A stretch of 10,497 bases of DNA from Bacteroidales bacterium (GTDB lineage: Bacteria; Bacteroidota; Bacteroidia; Bacteroidales; UBA932), in assembly GCA_017471085.1 (NCBI GenBank), contig JAFUWW010000035.1, forward strand, positions 1-10,497, in the 5' to 3' direction. Numbering within the stretch: the stretch's first letter is position 1; each line of letters starts with the position of its first letter. The notes beneath the pieces are model-generated. The model was not told the origin of the DNA. It saw only the letters and a list, made by a program, of their open reading frames with translations, and ran no database searches. Positions 9,635-10,497 of the stretch are shown piece after piece. The position numbers and the translations under genes were made by a program.

Positions 9635-10024
9635 CTACAGGTATTCTTCCAAAAACTCAGCGGCATCGGCCACACAGTCGGGGCAGTCCCTGAGCGGCTT
9701 TCCCGTCCCTGCGCCTTTGAGCAGCTTGCACCGGGTGGCTCCGTTTCGTTCCTGAAACTTTACCATCATCTCTTTCATGCGGGAGCGGGATTTGATCCGG
9801 TCTTTGGTTGCGAGCCCTACGATCATCCCGGCACCCACGAGGGCGCCGCAGGTCCCTTCCATATTCCCCATGCCGGTCCCATAGGCCCCGGCAATATCGA
9901 GGGCGGTCTGTTCCGGCAGCCCCACGAGGTCACAGTAGGTGCAAACGACAGCCTGGGCGCAGTTATGGGAGTTGCAGCGCTTCTTTTCCGCCGCGAGGTG
10001 TTTTCTTGTTTCCATAGCGTTCAT
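9635..10024 (-). CDS. C_GCAxxG_C_C family cysteine-rich (putative redox) protein
   Basis: A 129-aa cytosolic protein with the spacing that defines the C_GCAxxG_C_C family: CNSHNCAQAVVCTYC near the N-terminus, then GNMEGTCGALVGAGMIVGL, then NGATRCKLLKG, and CPDCVADAAEFLEEYL at the C-terminus. The many conserved cysteines suggest metal or redox chemistry, but the biochemical role of the family is not established. Two starts are possible, ATG 10024 and ATG 10015 (three residues shorter); the second gives a longer leader and neither can be excluded. It is the first gene of an operon with the C69 dipeptidase and has the best promoter in the window. Confidence 0.88.
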   Translation of the reverse strand: MNAMETRKHLAAEKKRCNSHNCAQAVVCTYCDLVGLPEQTALDIAGAYGTGMGNMEGTCGALVGAGMIVGLATKDRIKSRSRMKEMMVKFQERNGATRCKLLKGAGTGKPLRDCPDCVADAAEFLEEYL

Positions 10025-10215: not shown

Positions 10216-10252
10216 AGGGACCGCCTCCCCGCCGTCGCTGCATCACCTGCTC

Positions 10253-10497
10253 TAAAGCACACTTTGGCTCTTCCAGGTCACATTTCGTGCTTTAGCCATA
10301 TCTGCACCCCCGCACTAAAGCACACTTTGGCTCTTCCAGGCCACATTTCGTGCTTTAGCCACGCCTGCACACCCGCTTTAAAGCACACTTTCGCTCTTCC
10401 AGGCCACATTTCGTGCTTTAGCCACGCCTGCACACCCGCTTTAAAGCACACTTTCACTCTTCCAGGCCCCATTTCGTGCTTTAGCCACGCCTGCACC
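10253..10497. repeat. 63-bp tandem repeat array, palindrome-ended units
   Basis: Four units start at 10253, 10316, 10379 and 10442, exactly 63 bp apart, and the last is cut by the window edge. Each has a 42-bp core that begins TAAAGCAC and ends GTGCTTTA (perfect 8-bp inverted repeats), plus a 21-bp linker that is itself conserved (GCCACGCCTGCACACCCGCT in copies 2 and 3). Copies differ at only three core positions or so: TTTGGC/TTTCGC/TTTCAC, GGTC/GGCC and CACA/CCCA. In copies 1 and 2 an inner TGGC...GCCA pairing (one G-U in copy 1) extends the hairpin around the loop TCTTCCAG. Because 63 is a multiple of 3, the minus strand stays open with a 21-residue periodic translation, but copy 1 breaks it with a TGA. 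A non-coding repeat is favoured; its function is unknown. Confidence 0.92.

Follow-up and report, generated by a model that had tools for sequence, protein, structure and literature searches.

The window analysed here is the whole 10,497-nucleotide contig JAFUWW010000035.1 of a Bacteroidales bacterium, which ends in an array of short palindromes. This array is very probably a tandem cluster of non-autonomous elements resembling REPINs (repetitive extragenic palindromic [REP] doublets forming hairpins) and bacterial interspersed mosaic elements (BIMEs), dispersed by a diverged Bacteroidales REP-associated tyrosine transposase (RAYT) and lacking the GTAG feature. Palindromes with the same TAAAGCAC ends are dispersed in related genomes, their arrays differ between species in the number of units, and one clade of RAYT-like genes, whose products have the predicted fold of such enzymes, lies beside them. 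A reading of the window from its sequence alone (the sequence-only reading) could name no repeat class for the array; we find that it works like REPINs and BIMEs.

Anatomy of the array

Each palindrome follows the formula TAAAGCAC-N26-GTGCTTTA and is 42 nt long when the outer T/A is included. Four of them, separated by 21-nt linkers at a period of 63, span positions 10253-10483 at the 3' end of the window. The sequence-only reading had reported at least four units at 63-bp spacing, and the count stood up: the exact palindrome pattern occurs at 10254-10293, 10317-10356, 10380-10419, and 10443-10482, and Tandem Repeats Finder (TRF) returned a single array in the window, at 10238-10496 (period 63, 4.1 copies, 92% matches, 0% indels). 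None of 200 dinucleotide shuffles matched the palindrome pattern. Constant arms around a variable interior, also noted earlier, are evident as well. The four units, which came from TRF and were not selected by their arms, are identical at 16/16 arm positions, with a mean identity of 0.91 in the interior and 0.81 in the linker. The features are as follows.

10238-10252, plus strand: linker-like stretch of 15 nt at the array's left edge, starting where TRF starts and by eye like the 3' part of the later linkers
10253-10294, plus strand: palindromic unit 1, 42 nt, pattern match
10295-10315, plus strand: C-rich linker 1, 21 nt, from the spacing between units
10316-10357, plus strand: palindromic unit 2, 42 nt, pattern match
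10358-10378, plus strand: C-rich linker 2, 21 nt, from the spacing between units
10379-10420, plus strand: palindromic unit 3, 42 nt, pattern match
10421-10441, plus strand: C-rich linker 3, 21 nt, from the spacing between units
10442-10483, plus strand: palindromic unit 4, 42 nt, pattern match
10484-10497, plus strand: first 14 nt of a further linker, read from the sequence; the record stops here
9635-10024, minus strand: nearest gene, for a C_GCAxxG_C_C family protein of 129 aa (Pfam PF09719, 1.2e-28)

The hairpin that had been proposed for every copy is less well supported: compared with shuffles of the same unit, folding is better in units 1 and 2 (z -1.84 and -3.00) and hardly so in units 3 and 4 (-0.89 and -0.63). 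A search of the window against Rfam gave no match at the gathering score.

Distribution, variation, and turnover in related genomes

The search of relatives suggested by the sequence-only reading found the core beyond the window. Of 151 genomes sampled from one Bacteroidales genus, nine had several units, 8 to 72 each when exact arms were required: G038 (72), G029 (44), G006 (21), G532 (13), G058 (11), G540 (11), G001 (9), G533 (9), and G514 (8). Four further genomes gave one match each; judged by their interiors, those in G525 and G039 look real and those in G495 and G055 do not. The G039 interior nearly equals that of a G006 unit, and contamination is possible. Interiors of 25-28 nt were found in 10/151 and interiors of 36-46 nt in 4/151 genomes of the genus; the scan for lengths of 29-35 nt covered 11 genomes. 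A reversed-pattern control matched nowhere in the 151 genomes and gave single matches in 1/101 and 3/393 genomes of the two other sets.

A stricter pattern, scanned in one genome per species, identified a single locus, L003, in a Bacteroidales metagenome-assembled genome from water buffalo reticulum. It holds two diverged units, again 63 bp apart, and its genome, G001, has nine. Among 101 genomes related to G001, seven match the pattern, and those of G025, G073, and G100 are single matches with unlike interiors. In an order-wide sample, 2/393 genomes match: the known carrier G029, and G450 with one perfect hairpin of different make. Viral contigs gave two pattern matches with unrelated interiors, judged by eye to be chance, and plasmids one short 82% match, in Novosphingobium (E 0.8). 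In the samples searched, the repeat is confined to some members of a single genus. Several contig ends in these assemblies have intergenic palindrome arrays with periods of 62-75 bp.

The window is placed near this group because its 129-aa gene is 84-91% identical in G020, G038, G058, G029, and G532; in the other 14 of the 19 genomes examined the gene was not found at 1e-10. The gene starts 228 bases from unit 1 and is a neighbour only, outside the repeat system. Its DNA is 76-80% identical in five genomes, and homology ends at the gene ends. The five loci read have different genes around it, which leaves no orthologous array for comparison; in G058 a single unit with one mismatch in the arms lies about 0.5 kb away.

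The fetched loci contain 61 arrays and 131 units. Arms are perfect in 113/131 units, an invariance that is due in part to the retrieval of loci by exact arms. Single units account for 22 arrays; 23 have two units, 8 three, 5 four, 2 five, and 1 nine. Most units are 42 or 43 nt long, or 54 nt in G006 and G038, with a few of 41, 45, 48, and 53 nt. Linker length is steadier: 56 of 70 linkers are 21 nt, 13 are 20 nt, and one is 33 nt. Within genomes, identity is 0.91-1.00 in the arms, a range biased upward by the search, and 0.42-0.91 in the interiors. Linkers are C-rich on one strand and mostly begin with RCC. Opposite the C-rich strand, the tetranucleotide 5' of the palindrome has, position by position, G in 74, G in 90, G in 90, and Y in 119 of 130 units, and GGGY is the commonest foot (47/130). 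Within 6 nt of the foot, GTAG occurs in 2/130 and CGTC in 3/130 units.

These units also bear on classes set aside from the window alone. The core consensuses of integron attC sites are GTTRRRY and RYYYAAC; both were found in 0/130 units. The exclusion of clustered regularly interspaced short palindromic repeats (CRISPR) holds by repeat layout (cas genes were not searched), as interiors and linkers are both related between units and the arms are palindromic. A coding repeat was rejected: in the window two frames stay open through the 63-bp period, but there is no common reading frame because periods of 62, 63, 64, and 75 all occur in the set.

The arrays are scattered across many loci, most of which differ in their flanks. 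Fifty-six of the 61 are clear of open reading frames (ORFs) of at least 150 aa and five overlap one. Around the 41 arrays that could be classed, genes are tandem in 16 cases, divergent in 13, and convergent in 12, compared with 92, 43, and 50 among background gene pairs at the same loci. The 164 ORFs near arrays include no recurrent neighbour except at a TrkH/helicase/DPPIV/RAYT locus and in a few small pairs and triplets.

Other intergenic repeats accompany the palindromes in two genomes. In G029, several arrays follow a conserved leader that has another palindrome, GGAATTT...AAATTCC (L040 1800-1881, L041 4048-4134, L046 4598-4684, L048 6925-7011), and the arrays are parts of larger intergenic mosaics. 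Loci of G001 share a further intergenic repeat with GCGCAGGT-like motifs (L028 4464-4563, L030 4003-4101, L031 4326-4424).

Three sites could be compared between species. At the one beside the transposase gene, both flanks and most units are common to G533 and G532, G532 has one extra whole unit, and both arrays terminate in two decayed units. At the second, the right flank and a decayed last unit are shared, and the other units and the left flank differ. At the third, G532 has three units in 0.8 kb and G514 has 58 bp and no unit; no target-site footprint can be read there because G514 is without the whole 0.8-kb stretch. In the seven units shared by G533 and G532, arms changed at 6/112 positions and interiors at 23/181 (Fisher P 0.045; a small sample from two species). 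In the two decayed end units, the arms did not change less (3/32 versus 6/52).

Growth of a neutral minisatellite by slippage, with no enzyme, is a very improbable origin for these arrays. It would fit the likeness of the window units and the whole-unit differences between species' arrays, but it accounts poorly for the many dispersed loci, the constancy of linker length despite diverging sequence, the identical arms on both 42-nt and 54-nt units, the smaller share of changed positions in arms at shared sites, and the link to one transposase clade. The sequence-only reading would have preferred a minisatellite had the core occurred only here, with arms varying as loops do. The core occurs elsewhere, and in the two-species comparison the arms varied less.

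To examine pairing, we counted base combinations by script, against shuffles, in 70 unique 42-nt units with at most one arm mismatch, a set that says little about the outer stem. At the first freely varying pair, R9/Y34, the combinations were AT in 29, GT in 20, AC in 19, and GC in 2 units. Watson-Crick pairs are rarer than in shuffles at 9/34 (z -2.7) and at 10/33 (z -3.2). Deeper pairs are mostly at shuffle level; pair 16/27 is above it (z +3.2), as are 16/28 (z +3.3) and 18/26 (z +3.5) in G029. At pair 2/41, 22 imperfect matches beside arrays, some of which are 54-nt units or other units read out of register, gave three pair-keeping double changes (G-C twice, on one G533 contig, and T-A once), three G-T/T-G combinations, and five A-C mismatches. 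Pairing may therefore be of slight importance, as expected of a hairpin in single-stranded DNA; the counts do not support an RNA helix under steady selection.

These counts bear directly on a structured RNA array, one of the possibilities raised from the window, in which the units are transcribed and the hairpin is a functional product or a protein-binding RNA. We give this explanation very little weight. The perfect arms (in loci found by exact arms), the folding of two window units, the double changes at pair 2/41, and the pairs above shuffle level would suit it. However, Watson-Crick combinations are deficient at 9/34 and 10/33, A-C mismatches outnumber double changes at 2/41, and changed arms keep pairing only occasionally. 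The arrays also have mixed orientation to genes, and the repeat is missing from most genomes of the genus.

A RAYT-like transposase beside the arrays

RAYT relatives were detected at 1e-25 in 69 of the 151 genus genomes, and a close clade (below 1e-140) in five: G514, G029, G533, G532, and G038, with one close copy per genome. All five are among the nine carriers, an overlap with a chance probability of about 2e-7 if genomes are independent, which is not assured. Arrays with TAAAGCAC ends adjoin the clade gene at 5/5 loci, on both sides in G532 and G533. A tree built with 27 proteins, which come from 30 loci, recovers the five clade proteins as monophyletic (support 100/99). They are 304-330 aa long, with motifs THFH and Y[IV][FL]RNC and a C-terminal extension. 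The 27 related proteins measure about 220-360 aa; 21 have T-H-[FL]-H, four have N there, and two are without such a motif in the stretch read. The predicted structure of a clade protein is closest to a RAYT bound to a REP hairpin (4er8) and places an HUH pair and a tyrosine on a Y1 core. Collectively, the dispersed copies, the gain and loss of whole units, and the transposase gene beside arrays in five genomes uphold the earlier suggestion of a mobile palindromic element that has amplified.

The cognate RAYT scores too low for Pfam and was recovered from the gene neighbourhood of the arrays; among the matches listed, 0/120 relatives have a precomputed Pfam domain. Pfam Y1_Tnp matches occur in 13/15 genomes, repeat-bearing or not. 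A canonical Y1_Tnp found by Pfam was rejected as the cognate enzyme on the basis of 16 such loci in four carriers (3.7-6.0 kb each, 85.6 kb in all): none has a TAAAGCAC palindrome (up to three arm mismatches, loops of 20-34), and one lone 9-mer arm was seen. By profile and fold, the clade proteins are related to NCBIfam NF047646 (REP_Tyr_transpos) but are not members of that equivalog. Some RAYT-like matches, for example in G462, G508, and G535, have in-frame stops, and decayed copies may exist.

Related transposases have palindromes of their own. One fixed test for same-arm palindromes, with flanks set by ORF bounds, found them at 12/29 related transposase loci, at 4/16 Pfam-found Y1 loci (L070, L071, and L073 in G029; L083 in G038), and at 1/29 helicase loci, the last being the TAAAGCAC array at L124; L120, L123, and L124 are three helicase loci that bear the repeat. 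The other-clade palindromes include, in G488, CAGCGGCA pairs joined by 20-nt linkers on either side of the gene, and CGTTCTAA in G508, AGTTGGTG in G048 and G024, GGCAGATG in G473, and TGGGTGCA in G527. Apparently, these are further REP-like families. Several palindromes of other RAYT-like clades (L200, L196, L202, L204, L209, L212, L218) lie inside direct repeats of about 40-200 bp. At L218 (2876-3248, G025), three 52-nt palindromes with TGTGTCGC arms, spaced 156 and 165 bp, stand beside a RAYT-like gene.

The helicase/DPPIV/transposase locus (L111 4000-9300; orthologs L108, L118, L113, and L048) differs in arrangement from species to species: several genomes have DPPIV inverted, and some of the junctions bear palindromes. 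Palindromes are found at the helicase/DPPIV junction in G532, G533, G540, and G006. We do not claim a palindrome-linked inversion here, as the next gene is convergent without a palindrome in G020 and G030.

Several observations weigh against a REPIN-like array mobilised by this RAYT. Four carriers have no close RAYT (best E values 1.6e-28 in G001, 4.7e-26 in G006, 5.3e-47 in G058, and 3.3e-27 in G540), possibly through gene loss or incomplete assembly. The five genomes with the gene may be related to one another, which lessens the weight of the P value, and for the species of the window a clade RAYT, present or since lost, is presumed. Against the NCBIfam cut-off of 80 bits, four proteins scored 33.7 (E 3e-8), 18.4, 18.4, and 12.7, and the clade proteins also fall under the curated Pfam Y1_Tnp cut-off. 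The flank test left 17/29 related transposase loci without same-arm palindromes, and the Pfam-found Y1 loci had no TAAAGCAC palindrome. To these we add the scarcity of GTAG, the part that retrieval plays in the constancy of the arms, the slight support for the hairpin as a pairing structure, and the static nature of the between-species comparison from which mobilisation would be read.

An operator array could be built from the same parts: a nucleoid or regulatory protein would bind double-stranded half-sites, TAAAGCACR, that the 20-21-nt linker keeps in phase. The constancy of the half-sites, the weak covariation of pairs, a rigid linker, and a period of 63, arithmetically six turns at 10.5 bp, agree with it. 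We nevertheless think it most unlikely, given the patchy presence within the genus, the 43- and 54-nt units that break exact phasing, the scarcity of recurrent neighbours, and a linked gene with a transposase fold.

Proposed mechanism and comparison with known systems

Under the REPIN-like reading, each unit consists of the short end TAAAGCACR in two inverted copies, with a drifting sequence between them. Adjacent units lie 20-21 nt apart, and the C-rich linker mostly sets GGGY directly 5' of the palindrome on the opposite strand. The diverged RAYT, a protein of 304-330 aa with an HUH pair, a tyrosine, and a C-terminal extension, would bind the hairpin made by the ends when the DNA is single-stranded, cut it close to the foot, and insert it at another site. 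In this way copies whose ends are good would spread between genes, and arrays would gain and lose whole units. We infer the binding, cleavage, and movement, as well as the roles of GGGY and the fixed linker.

A more speculative extension, which we regard as doubtful, is that the working substrate of the RAYT is a phased row of hairpins rather than a single REPIN, so that the array itself evolves and serves as a breakpoint of local inversions. The C-terminal extension would then help to grip neighbouring palindromes across the 20-21-nt single-stranded linker on the GGGY side, and the enzyme would copy or delete whole units, with an inversion breakpoint perhaps at the helicase/DPPIV/RAYT locus.

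REP/RAYT systems are best known from Proteobacteria. The diverged RAYT-like transposases of this Bacteroidales genus are unnamed in databases, and several have their own palindromes. We found no description of this repeat family in the open-licence literature searched. The nearly fixed linker and the missing GTAG offer a direct test of what such enzymes read, and intergenic arrays of this kind are easily mistaken for CRISPRs, RNAs, or reading frames.

In the wide sense, the system agrees with REPINs and BIMEs: its copies are dispersed and intergenic, each is an inverted doublet with a less conserved spacer, and a Y1/HUH gene is flanked by the repeats. Because the GTAG feature and the NCBIfam cut-off both failed, we file it as a REPIN/RAYT variant and not as a canonical REP. 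No unit bears a gene, arrays hold many units, and each of five genomes has one close transposase copy, unlike IS200/IS605.

Published REPINs are inverted REP doublets around a spacer, in tandem clusters, some beside a RAYT (PMC3116915). In Escherichia coli, the RAYT binds hairpins that have GTAG at the foot, and its cleavage site is CT (PMC8266576). Our arrays share with these Pseudomonas and enterobacterial systems (PMC3116915, PMC8266576) the conserved inverted ends, the variable spacer, the many intergenic copies in tandem clusters, clusters adjoining a cognate RAYT gene, and the same predicted enzyme fold (4er8). They differ in their shorter ends (8-9 nt, against 16), the missing GTAG, the 20-21-nt linker between tandem units in 69/70 cases, and the RAYT, which is 304-330 aa long and has the motifs T-H-F-H and Y[IV][FL]RNC.

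Short palindromes tagged with GTAG or CGTC occur in dimers and tandem groups, the CGTC type in Bacteroidetes among other phyla (PMC3733652). The grouping is similar to that of our units, whereas GTAG and CGTC mark few feet here and GGGY is the commonest. Among the TnpA-Y1 subclasses, the Bacteroidetes subclass 2.6 has "atypical secondary structures", and its palindromes lack GT[AG]G; the enzymes show NH[LIV]H and YIH[QN]NP and have a median length of 179 aa (PMC6006769). The likeness extends to the phylum and to a gene flanked by GT[AG]G-less palindromes with copies elsewhere in the genome; the clade proteins, with THFH, Y[IV][FL]RNC, and 304-330 aa, fall outside that subclass.
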